In this document: positions 18,118 to 33,935 of the stretch, one piece after another
How the letters are laid out: the number at the start of each line of letters is the position of its first letter
Position numbering within the stretch: the first letter of the stretch is position 1
Virus record (IMG/VR): IMGVR_UViG_3300044701_000437
Span: 1-41,475 of that record
DNA: 41,475 nucleotides
Source: a virus
Reading direction: 5' to 3' (one strand)
Position numbers and translations under genes: made by a program
Notes under the pieces: model-generated
Told to the model about the DNA's origin: nothing
What the model saw: the letters and a program-made list of their open reading frames with translations, nothing else
Databases searched by the model: none

Positions 18118-18744
18118 ATGCATCTTCCTGAAGTCAAGCTGATCCATGTCACTCCAGAAGCTGAAGCACAAGTCACCTACCTGGCTCGTGTCTCGAACCC
18201 TAAGGCAGTCAAAGAGCCTAACGACAAGCTCCTGCAGTATTTGATCAAACACAAGCATTGGTCTCCCTTTGAGATGGCTTCGATGTGTCTTGAGATAAAT
18301 ACCACCAGATCCATCTCCTCTCAGATCCTTCGTCATCGATCCTTTTCGTTTCAGGAGTTCTCTCAACGGTATGCCCAGGTCCAGGAGATCAATCAAATCC
18401 CTGAGCTTCGTAGACAGGATCAAACTAATCGACAGAACTCAATCAATGACCTTGATCCAAAAGTTGTCGAGGAAGCTACCAAGCTAACCCTTGAGTCGTA
18501 TCAGAAAGCCTTTGACACCTACCATCAGCTTCTAGACCTTGGTGTCGCTAAGGAATGTGCCAGGGAGGTCCTACCTCTTGCATCTCCTACCAAGCTTTAC
18601 ATGCATGGAACGATCAGATCTTGGATTCATTATTGCGACGTAAGGACAGACCCCTCGACTCAGAAGGAACATAGGCTCATTGCGATTGCGTGTCGTGAGA
18701 TCTTGTACGACGTTTTTCCTAGCCTTAAACCCCCTGAATGCTGA
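18118..18744 (+). CDS. thyX: Flavin-dependent thymidylate synthase ThyX
   Basis: A 208-residue ThyX, which makes dTMP from dUMP using FAD, NAD(P)H and methylenetetrahydrofolate. The signature RHRxxSxxxxSxRY is intact at residues 72-85 (RHRSFSFQEFSQRY), and a C-terminal VRTDPSTQKEHRLIA region supplies the conserved substrate-binding Arg. Length matches phage and bacterial ThyX. It stands alone between two non-coding regions. The ATG at 18118 follows a pyrimidine-rich leader with no clear ribosome site (only AGAG just before it). Phage ThyX typically supports dTTP supply during replication, alongside the NrdA/NrdB pair at 33963-36106. Confidence 0.95.
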   Translation: MHLPEVKLIHVTPEAEAQVTYLARVSNPKAVKEPNDKLLQYLIKHKHWSPFEMASMCLEINTTRSISSQILRHRSFSFQEFSQRYAQVQEINQIPELRRQDQTNRQNSINDLDPKVVEEATKLTLESYQKAFDTYHQLLDLGVAKECAREVLPLASPTKLYMHGTIRSWIHYCDVRTDPSTQKEHRLIAIACREILYDVFPSLKPPEC

Positions 18745-20551: not shown

Positions 20552-21133
20552 ATGACCTCCACCATCATGAACCCAACCAACACCAAGACACAAGCTGTCG
20601 ATGCTAGGTTCCGCTGTTATGTTGCAGATCTAGCTGCTTACAACTCAGGACAACTCATAGGAGAATGGATCGACCTAGACGGTTTGACTGCTGAAGAGAT
20701 GCAGGAAGCAGTCTCCGATGTTATCAAGCGTTCTCCTTTTCCTGAAGCTGAAGAATACGCCATCCATGATTGGGACGGTTTGCCTAGTTCCTTTGGAGAA
20801 TGGCCAGACTGGAATGTTGTCGCTAATTATGTTGCAGCGATGGAAGAGCTTGAACAAGTAGCAGAAGAGGCGTTTAAGATTTACTGTCAGCATCTGGGAG
20901 AGTTGGATAATGATGATCTGATTTCTAATTTCAGGGAGGCCTATAGGGGGTGCCATGAATCTGGAGAAGATTATGCACAAGAGTATGCGGAAGATGTTGG
21001 ATTTAACGCCGACGATGCACCTTGGCCCTTTTACTACATCGACTGGTCAGCAGCCTTTAGAGACCTTGAAGTCGGTGGTGATATTTGGTCACATCGTGGT
21101 CATTATGGTTTGCATGTATTTAGCAATTATTGA
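20552..21133 (+). CDS. ardA: ArdA-family antirestriction protein
   Basis: A 193-residue, strongly acidic protein of the ArdA family, which mimics bent B-form DNA and blocks type I restriction enzymes by occupying their DNA groove. Visible motifs are YVADLAAYNSGQLIGEWID near residues 24-42, EEYAIHDWDG near residues 67-76 and the antirestriction signature FREAYRGCHESGEDYA near residues 128-143. Length is in the 165-200 range of the family. It sits in the middle of the early block, where it would be made before most of the genome is exposed. A nearer in-frame ATG (residue 6) could also be used. Confidence 0.9.
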   Translation: MTSTIMNPTNTKTQAVDARFRCYVADLAAYNSGQLIGEWIDLDGLTAEEMQEAVSDVIKRSPFPEAEEYAIHDWDGLPSSFGEWPDWNVVANYVAAMEELEQVAEEAFKIYCQHLGELDNDDLISNFREAYRGCHESGEDYAQEYAEDVGFNADDAPWPFYYIDWSAAFRDLEVGGDIWSHRGHYGLHVFSNY

Positions 21134-23593: not shown

Positions 23594-23876
23594 GCATGAG
23601 TTTCCTGGGCAATTGATGTCAGTGTTGTTCTATGTAGCAGCACATGACGGATGTACCACACTTGAAGCCCGTGATGCCATCGGTCTTGGTGACTCTTCGG
23701 TTTCAAGATGTACGGACTGGTTATGCGACCGTCATCGATTGGGCAAGCCAGGATTAGGACTCATTGTTAAAAAGGTAGACCCTGTAGATCGTCGTTATCG
23801 TCGTCTGACCTTGACCACTAAAGGTCGCTTCTTCATGAATCAAATTAAGGAGATCATCTATGATGACCAAGATTAA
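23526..23876 (+). CDS. MarR-type winged-helix regulator
   Basis: A 116-residue winged-helix DNA-binding protein. Helices around residues 20-70 include HDGCTTLEARDAIGLGDSSV, where the recognition helix is SVSRCTDWLCD, and the wing GLIVKKVDPVDRRYRRLTLT ends in TKGRFF, all typical of MarR proteins. MarR dimers bind 16-20 bp dyads. The ATG at 23526 is preceded by AGAGGA at a suitable distance; a GTG at 23493 is the alternative. It overlaps the integrase start by 17 bases. It is the only clear regulator in the window and therefore the leading candidate for the dyads at 19087 and 19130. Confidence 0.78.
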   Translation: MTAVSDKRIDRLRRAVDLLRTLEHEFPGQLMSVLFYVAAHDGCTTLEARDAIGLGDSSVSRCTDWLCDRHRLGKPGLGLIVKKVDPVDRRYRRLTLTTKGRFFMNQIKEIIYDDQD

Positions 23877-24723
23877 AACATGGGGTGAAGCAGAGGATTA
23901 TACCTTTGCTACCCGTGACACATGGAGACACGGTAATGGGGCTGTCACGGCTCGCATTAACTGTGGACATTTCACCAGGCTACGAGGTCGAAGCTTCCCC
24001 ATCTTGAAGATCACAGCACCTGTTGTGGCTCAAGTCTCGATGGAGTTGGAAGAGGAGGGGAAATCAGATGCCACGATTAATCGAATTGTGTCGGCTGTCT
24101 CCACCGTCCTTAACCATCTGGCCTTCGACGGTCTCATCCCTTCTGCCCCGAAACTCAGGCGCCGCAAGGAGTTAGAGCATCGAATTGCCTACTTTACCAA
24201 GGAAGATGTCGAGGCCATGGTCCAAGCCAGTAAAGACTTGTGGGAACGCAACGATCTTGCTGACATCATCTTGACTGCGGCTTACACGGGCTTGCGTCAA
24301 GGTGAATTGATGAACCTCAAGGTGCAAGACATTGATCTTTATAGTAAACAGATTCATGTCGGTGGTCGTGATGGGTTTGTGACCAAGGCTGGTAACTACC
24401 GGACGGTGCCAATCCATGATCGAATACTTCCTTTGCTCTCCACTCGTCTTGAACATGCCACACCCAACGTTCGGATCTTTGCTCAGGATTGGAACGATAA
24501 AGATCAACTGCTTCGGTCGTTCAAAAAGGTCAGACGTTTCATTGGTCGTGATGAGACTTACGTCTTCCACACCTTGCGTCATTCCTTTGCCACGTGGATG
24601 ATCGAAGCCGATGTGAACATCAGGGTCTTGCAACAGATCCTTGGGCATAAGCGAATTGAAACCACCTTGCGTTATGCCAAGGTGACAGATTCCACCTCCC
24701 GTAATGCTATGAATTCTATTTAG
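23860..24723 (+). CDS. int: Tyrosine-family site-specific integrase
   Basis: A 287-residue tyrosine recombinase. All catalytic positions are visible: Arg146 in AYTGLRQGEL, Lys176 in FVTKAGN, His237 and Arg240 in HTLRHSF, His263 in LGHKRIE and the nucleophile Tyr272 in TTLRYAKV. Residues 1-110 carry a SAM-like core-binding domain; a short N-terminus suggests a small or absent arm-binding domain. A clean AAGGAG (23847-23852) lies 7 bases before the ATG. The gene is followed by a 102-residue ORF and the tRNA-Leu half site at 25076, as in the cyanophage P-SSP7 arrangement. It should integrate the phage at a host tRNA-Leu gene. Confidence 0.95.
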   Translation: MMTKIKTWGEAEDYTFATRDTWRHGNGAVTARINCGHFTRLRGRSFPILKITAPVVAQVSMELEEEGKSDATINRIVSAVSTVLNHLAFDGLIPSAPKLRRRKELEHRIAYFTKEDVEAMVQASKDLWERNDLADIILTAAYTGLRQGELMNLKVQDIDLYSKQIHVGGRDGFVTKAGNYRTVPIHDRILPLLSTRLEHATPNVRIFAQDWNDKDQLLRSFKKVRRFIGRDETYVFHTLRHSFATWMIEADVNIRVLQQILGHKRIETTLRYAKVTDSTSRNAMNSI

Positions 24724-28203: not shown

Positions 28204-28644
28204 ATGGCTCGTTTCCGCTCAAAGCTAGAGGAAAGGGTCTCTGATCTCCTACTCCACCACCGAGTCGGTTACGAATACGAATCAGCCAAGCTTCCGTACA
28301 CACTTCATTGCAGCTACTGCCCTGACTTCCTGTTGCCCTCTGGGGTTTTCTTGGAAGTCAAGGGCGTGCTCGATGCAGATGATCGACGGAAGATGCTTGC
28401 AGTCAAACGGAACCACCCTGACGTTGACATTCGATTTGTCTTTCAGAACCCATTCAGTCGTATGCCCCATTTGAAAACTACTCATGCTCAATGGGCTGAG
28501 AAGAATGGTTTTCAATGGTGTCATTACCAATCCATCCCTAAATCATGGCTGAACCCACCAACTATCAATTCACCTTCACAAGCAAGTCCGAACGACACAC
28601 CCAAAGCTACACCAGCGACGGACTCCCAGGAACAGATCAAATGA
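28204..28644 (+). CDS. Endonuclease I (gp3-like Holliday-junction resolvase)
   Basis: A 146-residue homologue of T7 gp3. It opens with FRSKLEERVSDLL, and the active-site core YCPDFLLPSGVFLEVKG contains the catalytic Asp, Glu and Lys of the PD-(D/E)xK nuclease fold; HPDVDIRFVF follows as in T7. A Pro/Ser/Thr-rich C-terminal extension of about 30 residues (after NPPTINSPSQ) is not typical and overlaps the next gene. T7 gp3 resolves branched DNA and degrades host DNA to recycle nucleotides, which fits the dNTP-related genes downstream. Confidence 0.93.
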   Translation: MARFRSKLEERVSDLLLHHRVGYEYESAKLPYTLHCSYCPDFLLPSGVFLEVKGVLDADDRRKMLAVKRNHPDVDIRFVFQNPFSRMPHLKTTHAQWAEKNGFQWCHYQSIPKSWLNPPTINSPSQASPNDTPKATPATDSQEQIK

Positions 28645-28960: not shown

Positions 28961-30527
28961 GTTTCTAAACCACGAACCATGTCCGCATTGTGGCTCGTCT
29001 GACGCTGGATCACGGTATTCAGACGGGCACTTCTATTGCTTCAAGTGTCACTCTTACGTTCATGGAGATGATGATTCTACGGGATCTTATGTTCACGATC
29101 AAATGAAGCATCAAGTGGAACTACAAGGTGAAGCTGTTAGGCTGCCCACTCGCAACATTAAACAGTCAACGTGTAAGAAGTACACTTGTTTGAAAGAAGG
29201 TGATCGACTTCGCTTCTATTACAGGAGCAAGTCAGGAGCTATTGTCGGAGCCAAGGTAAAGACAAAGGATAAGGAGTTTTGGTGGGAAGGGTCTAACCAA
29301 GATCATCAATTCTTCGGACAACATCTTTTCCCTGGTAAGGGTAAACGGGTTGTGATCTTTGAAGGTGAGATCGATGCAATGTCAGGTTGGGAGGCAATGC
29401 CTAATTGGCAAATGGTTTCCCTTCCTGATGGTGCTGCCTCAGCTAAAAAGTCAATCCAAAAACAATTGGAATGGCTTCAAGGCTACGAAGAGATCGTCTT
29501 GTTCTTTGACAACGATGATGTCGGTAAAGCAGCAGCAGAAGAGGCAGCTTCAATAATTCCACCTGGCAAAGTAAAGATTGCCAAGTTGGATCCTCAGTTC
29601 AAAGATGCCTCTGACGCACTTCAAGCTAACCAAGCAGAGGAAGTACGTAAGGCCATTTGGAACGCTGAGCCATGGGCACCTGGGGGAATTGTCGCTGGGC
29701 AAGATCTCCTATCAGTCATCACCACACCTAACCCACCTTGCATCCATGAATATCCCTACGTTGGACTCCAAAGGAAGCTTCACGGGATCAGGTACGGTGA
29801 ACTTGTTACGATTACTTCGGGCTCTGGACAAGGAAAGTCATCGATTTGTCGGGAGTTGGCAAATCACCTTCTCGGAAACAACGAGCGGGTTGGTTATCTG
29901 GCACTTGAAGAATCGAACCGAAGAACTGCCCTTGGACTTATGTCGTCGTGCCTTGGAAAAGCTTTCCATATTGGAGAGCATTCAGCCGACGAGTTACGTT
30001 TCGCGTATGATCAAACCCTTGCGAAATGGAACCTATTCCTCTTCGATGGCTTTGGCTCCTATGACCCAGATGTGATCTACAACAGGGTTGAATACCTAGC
30101 CCTTGGTCTTGACGTAAAGATCATCTTCCTTGATCACTTGTCGATCCTGCTTTCAGGCCTTGACGGTGATGAGCGTCGAATGATCGATCAGACCATGACC
30201 AAGCTACGTAGCCTTGTGGAGCGGACTGGAATCACCATGTTCCTTGTTTCCCACCTACGTCGCTCAGGAGGGGATCAGAACCATGAGGAAGGGGCCAGGG
30301 TGACACTTGGACAGTTGAGAGGCTCAGCAGCCATCGCTCAATTGTCTGACACAGTGATCGCCCTAGAACGTAACCAGCAGAACGACACTGGCACCACTGT
30401 TCGTATTCTAAAGAATCGATATACAGGGGAAGTGGGTGTTGCTTGCAAGCTTGAATACGATCTACAAACTTGTCGTTATCGTGAGGTTCCAGAGGACATT
30501 AACTACTTTGAGCAGGAGGATTTTTAA
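28935..30527 (+). CDS. DNA primase-helicase (gp4-like)
   Basis: A 530-residue bifunctional replication protein. The zinc-binding domain has Cys16, Cys19, Cys35 and Cys38 (CPHCGSSDAGS, FYCFKCH), close to T7 gp4A. The TOPRIM primase centre shows VVIFEGEIDAMSG and LFFDNDDVGKAAA. The helicase has a Walker A SGSGQGKSS with Lys301 and a Walker B IIFLDHLSIL, followed by the arginine-finger region. The C-terminus is acidic (INYFEQEDF), as expected for polymerase contact. It overlaps the preceding gene by 26 bases and shares a base with the polymerase start. One TTCACGATCAAA copy (29092-29103) lies inside it. Confidence 0.96.
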   Translation: MLSTERQSEFLNHEPCPHCGSSDAGSRYSDGHFYCFKCHSYVHGDDDSTGSYVHDQMKHQVELQGEAVRLPTRNIKQSTCKKYTCLKEGDRLRFYYRSKSGAIVGAKVKTKDKEFWWEGSNQDHQFFGQHLFPGKGKRVVIFEGEIDAMSGWEAMPNWQMVSLPDGAASAKKSIQKQLEWLQGYEEIVLFFDNDDVGKAAAEEAASIIPPGKVKIAKLDPQFKDASDALQANQAEEVRKAIWNAEPWAPGGIVAGQDLLSVITTPNPPCIHEYPYVGLQRKLHGIRYGELVTITSGSGQGKSSICRELANHLLGNNERVGYLALEESNRRTALGLMSSCLGKAFHIGEHSADELRFAYDQTLAKWNLFLFDGFGSYDPDVIYNRVEYLALGLDVKIIFLDHLSILLSGLDGDERRMIDQTMTKLRSLVERTGITMFLVSHLRRSGGDQNHEEGARVTLGQLRGSAAIAQLSDTVIALERNQQNDTGTTVRILKNRYTGEVGVACKLEYDLQTCRYREVPEDINYFEQEDF

Positions 30528-31045
30528 TGAAGCTGGTCTTTGACATTGAGACCAATGGCTTGTATTTTGATCTAACTCAAATTCATTGTGTTGTTATCCA
30601 AGACCTTGGTTCTGGTGAGATTACTGTCTATAACGACGAGGGTAATCGAGCTAGTATTACTCAAGCTGCAACCTTTATTGATGGGGCTGACCTTCTTATC
30701 GGCCACAATATAATTGGTTACGACATGCCAGTCATGAGGAAGTTCTTTCCCTTCCTAGATGGCTCAGGCAAGATGCTCGATACCCTTGTCCTATCAAGAC
30801 TTCGATATCCCAATCTCATCCTCCTAGACAAAGCTAAGCCGAGTGTAGGTATGCCTGAGAAGCTTCACGGAAGACATTCTCTTGAGGCATGGGGTTATCG
30901 CTTGAGTAATAACAAAGGCTCTTTTGCTAAGGCAACGAACTGGCAAGAATGGTCTCCTGAAATGGAAGACTATTGCATTCAAGATGTCAAACTCACCAAC
31001 CATCTATGGTCCCACTTCCACCAAACTTGGCCTGGATTGCCTTAG
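30527..31045 (+). CDS. DNA polymerase, 3'-5' exonuclease part (split gp5)
   Basis: A 172-residue ORF equal to the exonuclease domain of T7 gp5. Exo I is DIETNGL with Asp6 and Glu8, Exo II is LIGHNIIGYDMPV, and Exo III is YCIQDVKL with Tyr149 and Asp153, so proofreading residues are intact. The frame ends with TAG at 31043-31045, exactly where a full-length polymerase would continue. The polymerase domain follows after 2 bases in a different frame (-1). It either works as a separate subunit or is joined by a frameshift. No canonical slippery heptamer is visible near the stop. Confidence 0.9.
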   Translation: MKLVFDIETNGLYFDLTQIHCVVIQDLGSGEITVYNDEGNRASITQAATFIDGADLLIGHNIIGYDMPVMRKFFPFLDGSGKMLDTLVLSRLRYPNLILLDKAKPSVGMPEKLHGRHSLEAWGYRLSNNKGSFAKATNWQEWSPEMEDYCIQDVKLTNHLWSHFHQTWPGLP

Positions 31046-31047
31046 AG

Positions 31048-32277
31048 ATGAGGGTTCAAGAGATCCTCACTGAACAGGAGATCTACGGTTGGTCGTTCAA
31101 TCAAGTTGAGGCTCAGTTCCTAGAAGGAGAACTTCGTAGTGAACTAGAAATCCTTTACCAAGAGACGACACAAAGATTTCCTTACATCCCTGGTGAAGTC
31201 TTTACTCCAAAGGTAAAGAATGCAACTAGGGGTTATGTAAAAGATGCTCCCTTTACCAAGCTGATTGATTTCAACCCTACTAGCCGAGAGCACATCGCTC
31301 ATGTCTTGCAGACCTTCGATGGGTGGAAACCCACTAAGAAGACTGAGACCCAAAAGGTAGTGGTTGATGAAGTCACCTTGAATGAGCATGGAACTCCCTT
31401 GGCTCTAAAGTTCTATCGAATGCTAGAGCTAACTAAACATCTAGGAATGCTATCGGAAGGTGCTAATGCGTGGCTTAAGTTGGTACGTAATGGAAGGGTT
31501 CACCACCATTGCTCAGTCGCTACAGCAACGCATAGGGCAGCGCATCGTAACCCCAATTTGGGGCAAGTTCCCTCAGACCTACGTTTCAGAAAGCTCTTTA
31601 CAGCTTCACCCGAAATGGTCATGGTTGGTGCTGATCTTAGTGGCATTGAACTTAGGATGTTCGCCCATTACCTCGCCAGGTTTGATGATGGACGTTACGC
31701 CGACATCCTTCTCAATGGCGACATACATCAGGTCAACGCAGACAAGATCGGAATTGGTAGGCGAGAGGTGAAGACCATCACTTACGCCTTTCTCTATGGT
31801 GCTGGTGATCAGAAGATTGGTTGGTCCTATGACCCCCAGCTTCCACCAACTAAAGCCAGGGAAAAGGGTAAGGAGATCCGACAAGCCTTCATGAATGCTA
31901 TCGATGGCCTAGAGCAATTCGTCAAGGCTGTAAAGGCTAAGGCTGAATCCTTTGGTTACATCAACTCCATTGACGGTCGTCAGATCCTAGTTGAATCCCC
32001 TCATAAGGCATTGAACTATCTTCTGCAATCAGGAGCTACCGTCATTGCTAAACGTTGGATGGTGATTGTCAATGATTGGATCAAGGAACGAAACCTCGAT
32101 GCCCATCAATTGGCCTTCATCCACGACGAGTTGCAATTTGACTGTGAGCCCCAGCATTCAGACGACCTAGCCCTACTCCTGGGCCTAGCTGCTGAGGATG
32201 CAGGAAGGGCTTACCAACTTCGTATCCCGATTGCTGCTGAGTCAAAGATTGGTTCCGACTGGTCCGCTGTCCATTAA
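31048..32277 (+). CDS. DNA polymerase, polymerase part (split gp5)
   Basis: A 409-residue family A polymerase domain. Motif A is GADLSGIELRMFAH with Asp196, motif B is REVKTITYAFLYGAG with Lys242 and Tyr246, and motif C is FIHDELQFD with Asp360. Tyr246 aligns with T7 Tyr526 and E. coli Phe762, the residue often linked to lifestyle. The open frame extends upstream to 30973, and NLAWIALE just before the ATG resembles continuous polymerase sequence. The two ORFs together total about 580 residues, somewhat smaller than T7 gp5 (704). Confidence 0.93.
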   Translation: MRVQEILTEQEIYGWSFNQVEAQFLEGELRSELEILYQETTQRFPYIPGEVFTPKVKNATRGYVKDAPFTKLIDFNPTSREHIAHVLQTFDGWKPTKKTETQKVVVDEVTLNEHGTPLALKFYRMLELTKHLGMLSEGANAWLKLVRNGRVHHHCSVATATHRAAHRNPNLGQVPSDLRFRKLFTASPEMVMVGADLSGIELRMFAHYLARFDDGRYADILLNGDIHQVNADKIGIGRREVKTITYAFLYGAGDQKIGWSYDPQLPPTKAREKGKEIRQAFMNAIDGLEQFVKAVKAKAESFGYINSIDGRQILVESPHKALNYLLQSGATVIAKRWMVIVNDWIKERNLDAHQLAFIHDELQFDCEPQHSDDLALLLGLAAEDAGRAYQLRIPIAAESKIGSDWSAVH

Positions 32278-32429: not shown

Positions 32430-33163
32430 TCGTCAGGATTGACTGTGACTACCTTGTCTATAAAAGTGCCGTCTGCTGTGAATACGACGTTGATTATGGT
32501 GATGATCTGATTGTCGTTCAAAGTCGGTTCTCTGAGGTGCAATCTTTAATCACCAACGAGATCAAGAAGATTTGTGCAACCCTTGAAACTAAACAAGACG
32601 ACGTTGTACTTTACTTCTCCGACTCCAAGAACTTCCGTAAGATCCTTTACCCCGACTACAAGGGGCATCGTAACCGTAAGAAGCCTTGTGGTTACAAGCG
32701 AGCTATCAACTGGCTCCGGGAGCATTACCAAGTTGTCTCGATGCCTTATCTAGAGGCTGACGACGCCTTGGGTATTGATGCCACCAAGGATCAAGACAAT
32801 ACTTCAATCATTGTCTCCCCTGATAAAGACCTTAGGCAAATCCCTGGTCGTCTCTATGACTTCAATGAAGTTGTGAACGTAACGCCAGAGGAAGGTACTA
32901 GGTGGCATTTGATTCAAACCTTGGCAGGTGATCAAACAGATGGCTACCCAGGCTGCCCTGGCATAGGTGTCAAAAAGGCAGAATCTCTCTTCAATAAATA
33001 TGGGGAGAATTGGAAGACAGTTGTCAAAGCATTTGAATCTGCTGGATTGACTGAAGAGAACGCTCTACTTAACGCTCGCCTTGCACGTATCCTCCAACAC
33101 ACAGATTATGACTTCGTCGCCAACACCTTCATTCCCTGGAGCCCCACCACCGCCAACGTTTGA
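32426..33163 (+). CDS. 5'-3' exonuclease (gp6-like)
   Basis: A 245-residue member of the FEN/T7 gp6 nuclease family. Acidic metal-binding clusters are MIVRIDCDYL at the N-terminus, YLEADDALG near residue 111 and SPDKDL near residue 129, and the helix-hairpin-helix region is LAGDQTDGYPGCPGIG near residue 170. T7 gp6 removes RNA primers and degrades host DNA. The last 56 bases also encode the N-terminal extension of the NblA-like protein in another frame; the C-terminal residues ANTFIPWSPTTANV do not appear functionally important. Confidence 0.92.
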   Translation: MIVRIDCDYLVYKSAVCCEYDVDYGDDLIVVQSRFSEVQSLITNEIKKICATLETKQDDVVLYFSDSKNFRKILYPDYKGHRNRKKPCGYKRAINWLREHYQVVSMPYLEADDALGIDATKDQDNTSIIVSPDKDLRQIPGRLYDFNEVVNVTPEEGTRWHLIQTLAGDQTDGYPGCPGIGVKKAESLFNKYGENWKTVVKAFESAGLTEENALLNARLARILQHTDYDFVANTFIPWSPTTANV

Positions 33164-33398
33164 GTTGACCCTTGAGCAACGATTGGCAATTAGCAAGATG
33201 GAAGTCTTTCTTCCTAAAGCTGATAAGGAAACGCTTGTCCAATTGCTCGTAGCACTTCAAACCCAAGCTTTTTGTCTTGGTAATAACGTCACTCAACTCG
33301 TCAAACAATGGCCCAAAGCAACTCCACCAGTCGCGGTCCTTCTTACTACAAAAGAGGAAGCATCGAAGTTTGGGATTTCATCCGAGATCAACGACTGA
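33108..33398 (+). CDS. nblA: NblA-like phycobilisome degradation protein
   Basis: A 96-residue protein with the NblA core at about residues 18-68. FELTLEQ is the exact family opening, the following two-helix region has the right length, and QLVKQW corresponds to the family end LLKHQW. NblA dimers tether phycobiliproteins to the ClpC protease, causing phycobilisome breakdown. A Pro/Ser-rich extension precedes the core and a 28-residue extension follows; both are encoded in DNA shared with neighbouring genes. A start at ATG 33198 would destroy the core, so ATG 33108 is chosen. Helix residues differ from cellular NblA, so I am confident of family but not of activity. Confidence 0.75.
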   Translation: MTSSPTPSFPGAPPPPTFELTLEQRLAISKMEVFLPKADKETLVQLLVALQTQAFCLGNNVTQLVKQWPKATPPVAVLLTTKEEASKFGISSEIND

Positions 33399-33637
33399 AC
33401 TATCACCTAGGTAATGCCGTGAAGTATATCTGCCGCGCAGGATACAAGGACGACGCAATCACTGATCTTCGTAAAGCCATCCATTACCTTGAAGATGAAC
33501 TCCACCATGTCCAACAACTCTACGATCAACTCCAGCAGCCTGAACTCCAGCAACCAAACCTGTCAAGAGCAAAGCCTTCTGAATCAGGCGAGGATGTTTC
33601 GGAATGCTATGGGTCAGCCGATGAATTCGACAGATGA
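33308..33637 (+). CDS. DUF3310-family protein
   Basis: A 109-residue protein with the conserved segment IEVWDFIRDQRLNYHLGNAV, then KYICRAGYK and DLRKAIHYLEDEL, which identifies the DUF3310 family found in many phages and sometimes annotated as nucleotide-kinase-like. Role is unproven. The last 40 residues (Gln/Pro/Ser-rich) are non-conserved and overlap the MazG-like gene. The start lies 91 bases inside the nblA-like gene. It stands in the nucleotide-metabolism cluster. Confidence 0.8.
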   Translation: MAQSNSTSRGPSYYKRGSIEVWDFIRDQRLNYHLGNAVKYICRAGYKDDAITDLRKAIHYLEDELHHVQQLYDQLQQPELQQPNLSRAKPSESGEDVSECYGSADEFDR

Positions 33638-33935
33638 TCAAATCCTGTCGATGCAAGAACGGTTGATTGATGAAGAGGCAGATGAATTCCAAAAGGCTGT
33701 AATCCACGAACAGCTTGGAGACCCTACAGAAAACGTCCTCAAAGAGTTGTGCGATCTAGTCTTTGTTTGTTATCAATATGCCGCCTGTAGGGGTTGGGAT
33801 CTTGATGAAGCAATGCATAGGGTCTTTCTTTCCAACATGAGCAAACTGGTCAACGGTAAGCCCATGCGTAGAGCAGATGGAAAAATTCTCAAAGGGCCTA
33901 ATTATGAAGAGCCCATGCTACTTGATCTTGTCTAA
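33507..33935 (+). CDS. MazG-like nucleotide pyrophosphohydrolase
   Basis: A MazG-type protein. The core RLIDEEADEFQ carries the acidic metal-binding ExxE pattern, and NVLKELCDLVFVCYQ gives the second ExxD helix. The C-terminal NGKPMRRADGKILKGPNY is typical of short phage MazG-like enzymes. Such proteins hydrolyse nucleoside triphosphates or modulate alarmones. The start is uncertain: ATG 33507 (ACC before it), ATG 33495 and ATG 33594 are all in frame. The first 29 residues are Ser/Asn-rich and overlap the DUF3310 gene, so the shorter form from 33594 is possible. Confidence 0.78.
   Translation: MSNNSTINSSSLNSSNQTCQEQSLLNQARMFRNAMGQPMNSTDDQILSMQERLIDEEADEFQKAVIHEQLGDPTENVLKELCDLVFVCYQYAACRGWDLDEAMHRVFLSNMSKLVNGKPMRRADGKILKGPNYEEPMLLDLV

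Follow-up and report, generated by a model that had tools for sequence, protein, structure and literature searches.

NblA bridges phycobiliproteins and ClpC (PMC4103541, PMC7966870). The cellular members of the family (PF04485), such as those of S. elongatus (3cs5) and Anabaena (1ojh), form a helix-loop-helix, with a PPLP-like N terminus in S. elongatus and a terminal (Q)W in many of them. In our survey of 386 genomes of the cyanobacterial phylum, 128 had a PF04485 match. Phage-borne versions are found in the freshwater cyanophages Ma-LMM01, MaMV-DC and PaV-LD, for which antenna-degrading activity has been reported. These are different types of phage, and the marine podovirus sequences cluster separately in the account given in PMC9602691. 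The same article (2022) relates that Nadel et al. 2019 had predicted 14 cyanopodovirus isolates to carry nblA and demonstrated that a marine phage NblA is active, and that cyanobacteria in which marine and freshwater phage NblA was expressed lost phycobilins (it cites Nadel 2019, Ou 2015 and Gao 2012). An earlier note on the DNA studied here had called an nblA uncommon in T7-like cyanophages, which is wrong, the gene being standard in the MPP-B-type clade and already on record, as PMC9602691 notes with reference to Nadel et al. 2019.

We have analyzed a virus record of 41,475 bases (the window), a T7-like marine cyanopodovirus that, on our reading of its nearest relatives, belongs with MPP-B (the names MPP-A and MPP-B follow PMC4646655). 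An open reading frame for 96 residues that starts with the ATG at 33108 and codes for MTSSPTPSFPGAPPPPTFELTLEQRLAISKMEVFLPKADKETLVQLLVALQTQAFCLGNNVTQLVKQWPKATPPVAVLLTTKEEASKFGISSEIND is located between a T7-like exonuclease gene and a gene for a DUF3310 protein (labelled "nucleotide kinase" in phage annotation), overlapping the first by 56 nt and the second by 91 nt (Table 1). A search of the whole record with the profile of alignment A1 matched this site alone (E 5.8e-35). The explanation that we favor, with a probability of roughly 0.78, is that this is the selected nblA of an MPP-B-type cyanopodovirus, coding for an NblA-type adaptor, the core of which was most likely lost in one sub-lineage. 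It is the same gene in the same place as the marine cyanopodovirus nblA of Nadel et al. 2019 (per PMC9602691; phrog_27006), although the window copy is only 29-50% identical to the isolate copies (alignment A1) and combines an early exonuclease stop with a long tail of 28 residues. The gene type was thus already known in cyanopodoviruses; the double overlap is unusual yet clade-wide. The coordinates in the earlier note were all correct: the F codon of FELTLEQ is at 33159-33161, the exonuclease stop TGA at 33161-33163, the Q67-W68 codons at 33306-33311 and the DUF3310 ATG at 33308, with 28 residues following W68.

Table 1. Features of the nblA locus in the window
Feature	Position	Strand	Evidence or remark
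T7-like 5'-3' exonuclease (gp6-like), 245 aa	32426..33163	+	phrog_107 E 5e-63; Pfam 5_3_exonuc_N E 5e-12
nblA, 96 aa, ATG to stop	33108..33398	+	
Extension at the N terminus of NblA, 11-12 residues or so, in the +1 frame of exonuclease DNA	33108..33143	+	frame open, weakly conserved
NblA-proper: PPPP, FELTLEQ, helix 1, helix 2, terminal QW	33144..33311	+	Pfam NblA 1-49/50
Helix 1 of NblA	33171-33218	+	AlphaFold2
Helix 2 of NblA	33225-33305	+	AlphaFold2
NTG-G junction: DUF3310 start codon shared with the conserved NblA Trp codon	33308..33311	+	
C-terminal run-on tail of NblA, 28 aa, inside DUF3310	33312..33398	+	predicted disordered
DUF3310 protein, 109 aa	33308..33637	+	Pfam DUF3310 E 1.9e-13; phrog_236 E 1.2e-23

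The place of nblA in the operon, between the exonuclease and DUF3310/MazG/ribonucleotide reductase, is conserved. The operon has a third overlap at the 3' end of DUF3310, which is shared, in a different frame, by a MazG-like ORF at 33489-33935 (start uncertain). Upstream, the DNA polymerase is read in two overlapping frames, 30527-31045 for the exonuclease domain and then 30973-32277 for the polymerase domain; the records of S-TIP37 and P-SSP7 note the same split. The window also codes for ThyX (18118-18744), an ArdA antirestriction protein (20552-21133), a tyrosine integrase (23860-24723) and an endonuclease I (28204-28644). A search of the record, which is possibly incomplete, found no psbA (PF00124).

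Taken alone, the window protein scores 18.1 bits against PF04485 (E 0.0037, profile positions 1-49 of 50), below the cut-off of 25 bits, and a PI3Ka match scored similarly in the same single-sequence search. This weakness would suit a frame that is open by chance, or a small hairpin of helices that is unrelated to NblA and resembles it by accident. We consider that reading highly improbable, since at least 514 IMG/VR relatives keep the gene at this one place, codon-level selection is strong and profile searches put all the NblA structures on top. The PI3Ka match was dismissed as chance, being found in one member only. Among 18 relatives at the same place Pfam NblA was the leading family (12 matches, best E 2.9e-7) and the NCBIfam NblA matched eight; scores reached 31.3 bits and the close relative MedDCM-OCT-S28-C3 is above the curated Pfam cut-off. 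When the PDB was searched with a profile of these 18, the top four matches were the solved NblAs 3cs5 (the best, E 1.9e-4), 1ojh, 2q8v and 2qdo, with the phage PPPP-x-x-EL aligned opposite PPLPDFSL of S. elongatus NblA. The hhalign comparison with 62 cellular NblA sequences gave E 6e-8 (probability 94.7, 52 columns). The window protein also matches phrog_27006, of unknown function in PHROGs, over residues 23-96 (E 4e-17). The NblA motif L-[ST]-x-E-Q is present as LTLEQ, and so is the C-terminal region L64..K66-Q67-W68, the cellular counterpart being ELSLEQ..LLKHQW. L20, T21, E23, Q24, L64 and W68 are invariant in alignment A3. At K66 conservation is not strict (81 of 99), and the use of this residue as a marker of host type was rejected, as the Synechococcus-phage copies vary there too. 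AlphaFold2, run as a monomer on 41 aligned sequences (the window plus 40 IMG/VR relatives), predicted a helix-loop-helix with helices at 22-37 and 40-66 (pLDDT about 90) and a disordered tail (residues 73-93, pLDDT below 50). For the model, a short helical hairpin, Foldseek against the PDB and VIA-align returned zero matches, and BFVD returned one viral protein, 46% identical and without a name. The identity with cellular NblA is about 23% in the profile alignment, where the match is full-length, and the N-terminal extension and C-terminal tail are additional. The profile search of the PDB, the hhalign value and the predicted fold bear out the claim of an NblA homologue, and the ORF at 33108-33398 is a genuine member of the family.

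The earlier note had also left to a synonymous-site analysis whether this frame is selected. At the codon level the nblA core is under purifying selection: codon position 2 is nearly invariant (pairwise difference 0.02-0.15 against 0.49-0.58 at position 3), and dN/dS was about 0.14 in Synechococcus phages and about 0.1 in the four usable pairs of Prochlorococcus phages (range about 0.04-0.2, few pairs). For the stretch that overlaps the exonuclease, the null model was obtained by shuffling the exonuclease codons synonymously and reading the NblA frame again. The 58 non-redundant homologues contained no internal stops there, against 12.5 +/- 2.7 expected. In the PPPP segment the pairwise identity in the NblA frame was 0.78 as compared to 0.22 after shuffling, so this segment is NblA sequence, whereas in the far N-terminal extension the identity was 0.25 against 0.18, with 0 stop-containing sequences against 12.3. 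This outer extension is, by these values, kept open and loosely conserved. A bias in the Tyr codon at the start ATG of nblA was set aside, being ascertained by the choice of the ATG itself.

The exonuclease gives the complementary picture. Its diversity at fourfold sites (58 non-redundant loci) falls from 0.61 upstream to 0.40 within 33110-33136 and to 0.08 within 33137-33163. In phages devoid of nblA the exonuclease ends in ..PIL[WFY]TP(VL) or a few residues later, and therefore the carrier residues beyond W-S-P (33137-33145, the ancestral end), TTANV in the window, are read from nblA DNA. Since PPPP is constrained as NblA and aligns with PPLPDF of S. elongatus, the exonuclease tail is the passenger frame here and, judging from the codons, the exonuclease is the overprinting partner beyond WSP. 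The view that the whole N-terminal extension came from the exonuclease holds for the first 11 residues or so, which lie on DNA that codes for exonuclease with or without nblA, but not for PPPP. Nor is the exact fit of the core between its neighbors general. Among 100 loci, the exonuclease stop lies five nucleotides into the core, as in the window, in 19, at +44 in 42, at +59 in 20 and elsewhere in the remaining 19; in most relatives it falls 29-65 nt inside the core.

At the other end, the start of DUF3310 is tied to the NblA Trp codon as NTG-G, with ATGG in 79, TTGG in 18 and GTGG in two of 100 loci. In two loci a different ORF (LAFTDRELLILRGMVESRAMYRG..., by eye like Syn5 gp30) starts at NTG-G in place of DUF3310. 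A Trp is found at the matching place in 44 of the 62 cellular sequences, and since these also end in ..LLKHQW, this residue probably belonged to NblA from the outset, its codon being recruited for the start of DUF3310. Beyond it, the fourfold diversity of DUF3310 is the same inside the overlap (0.48-0.55) as outside (0.545). The tail length in the window equals the shuffled median of 29, and across loci the tails are on average shorter than expected by chance (20.8 against 27.6). As had been proposed, the C-terminal 28 residues come from the 5' end of DUF3310, and by these measures they are a run-on without detectable selection.

The gene has this location in most of the MPP-B-type cyanopodoviruses that we examined. 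We found nblA at this place in 15 records of Synechococcus or uncultured podoviruses and, by reading all six frames, in the Prochlorococcus phages P-SSP7 (annotated as 019A), P-SSP2 and NATL1A-7 and in MedDCM-OCT-S05-C849, with a diverged copy in P-GSP1. P-SSP3 keeps it too, with a core stretch identical to that of P-SSP2 (dN 0, dS 0). Scarce tblastn matches had pointed to Prochlorococcus phages without nblA, an idea that the six-frame reading ruled out. In the outgroup phages Syn5, S-CBP42, S-TIP28 and SS120-1 nblA is absent and other small ORFs occupy the slot. Many GenBank records leave the slot unannotated, annotate the exonuclease alone or misannotate nblA. The exonuclease gene itself is unannotated in HQ317389, HQ317388, GU943054 and HQ332140, and its frame appears broken in HQ317389, HQ317388 and HQ332140, perhaps by sequencing errors.

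A search with the DUF3310 protein recovered 47 loci devoid of nblA, all with one common junction, the exonuclease meeting DUF3310 directly and overlapping it, the comparison with such relatives being one that the earlier note had asked for. There the exonuclease ends in ..PILWTPVL (with slight extensions) and DUF3310 begins as MT.KNQSYGP-QYYKRG at an ATG internal to the exonuclease, the one that in carriers starts nblA, within the conserved Tyr-Asp codons TATGAC. The observed join would result if the DNA from the GP codons of nblA to those of DUF3310 had been deleted. These empty junctions could instead be ancestral, a host core having been inserted in a tight junction and both ends then extended by overprinting, as first suggested. 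The location of the first 11 residues and of the C-terminal tail on neighbor DNA agrees with such a history. It is not refuted by the AU test either, in which monophyly of the carriers was not rejected (p=0.206). We nevertheless regard it as rather unlikely: PPPP is constrained in the NblA frame, the exonuclease runs over the core in relatives (overprinting the other way round), and the insertion is old, common to nearly the whole clade. Moreover, in the exonuclease tree the phages without nblA form a clade nested among carriers, beside two (L076 and L105) that have the gene, and 0% of the bootstrap trees put all carriers on one side of a branch, as one change would require. Given this nesting and the AU value, loss is the more likely origin of the nblA-less state, although not proven.

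In the explanation that we favor, a near-complete NblA (PPPP...QW) lies exactly between the last ancestral exonuclease codons and the start of DUF3310. It borrows its start codon from the Tyr-Asp codons inside the exonuclease and lends its terminal Trp codon to the start of DUF3310. The exonuclease then came to extend into nblA, by some 5-25 residues according to the position of a stop, and nblA in turn continues into DUF3310. Tangaroavirus and its kin most likely lost the core, and their DUF3310 starts at what had been the ATG of nblA.

The product would be an NblA-type adaptor, a short and presumably dimeric helix-loop-helix that would bring phycobilisome proteins to the ClpC-ClpP protease of the host during infection. 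Since NblA bridges phycobiliproteins and ClpC, antenna proteins would be degraded in the infected cell. The nblA gene probably makes the cell dismantle its light-harvesting antenna, which may release amino acids or cut excess light absorption. The Prochlorococcus phages complicate this picture. Phycobilisomes are not used by Prochlorococcus, which reportedly lacks nblA (PMC7439483), but its podoviruses P-SSP7, P-SSP2, P-SSP3 and NATL1A-7 keep a selected gene, and their copies no longer match Pfam NblA. The NblA-like gene kept under selection in Prochlorococcus podoviruses is present in five of our loci, with 019A of P-SSP7 at 1874-2185 of its locus (L023; the others are L022, L024, L025 and L197). 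An NblA-derived protein that now serves as ClpC adaptor, or anti-adaptor, for a host protein outside the phycobilisome would account for this. As an explanation of the gene as a whole we find it quite unlikely, because the known hosts of most carriers are Synechococcus, which has phycobilisomes, the Synechococcus-phage copies remain closest to cellular NblA, and marine phage NblA is reported to be active on phycobilisomes (as related in PMC9602691). With doubt prevailing, the Prochlorococcus-phage copies may have been re-aimed at a different ClpC client, and the core may behave as a detachable module that leaves its start codon to DUF3310 when it is lost.

The locus shows a regulatory gene of host type that is built into the replication operon of a phage and shares its coding DNA at either end. 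For each overlap the leading frame can be told from the codon-level data, and on the 5' side the answer is opposite to the first impression. The presence of nblA in Prochlorococcus phages raises a testable question, that of the role that an NblA-like adaptor may play in cells without phycobilisomes.
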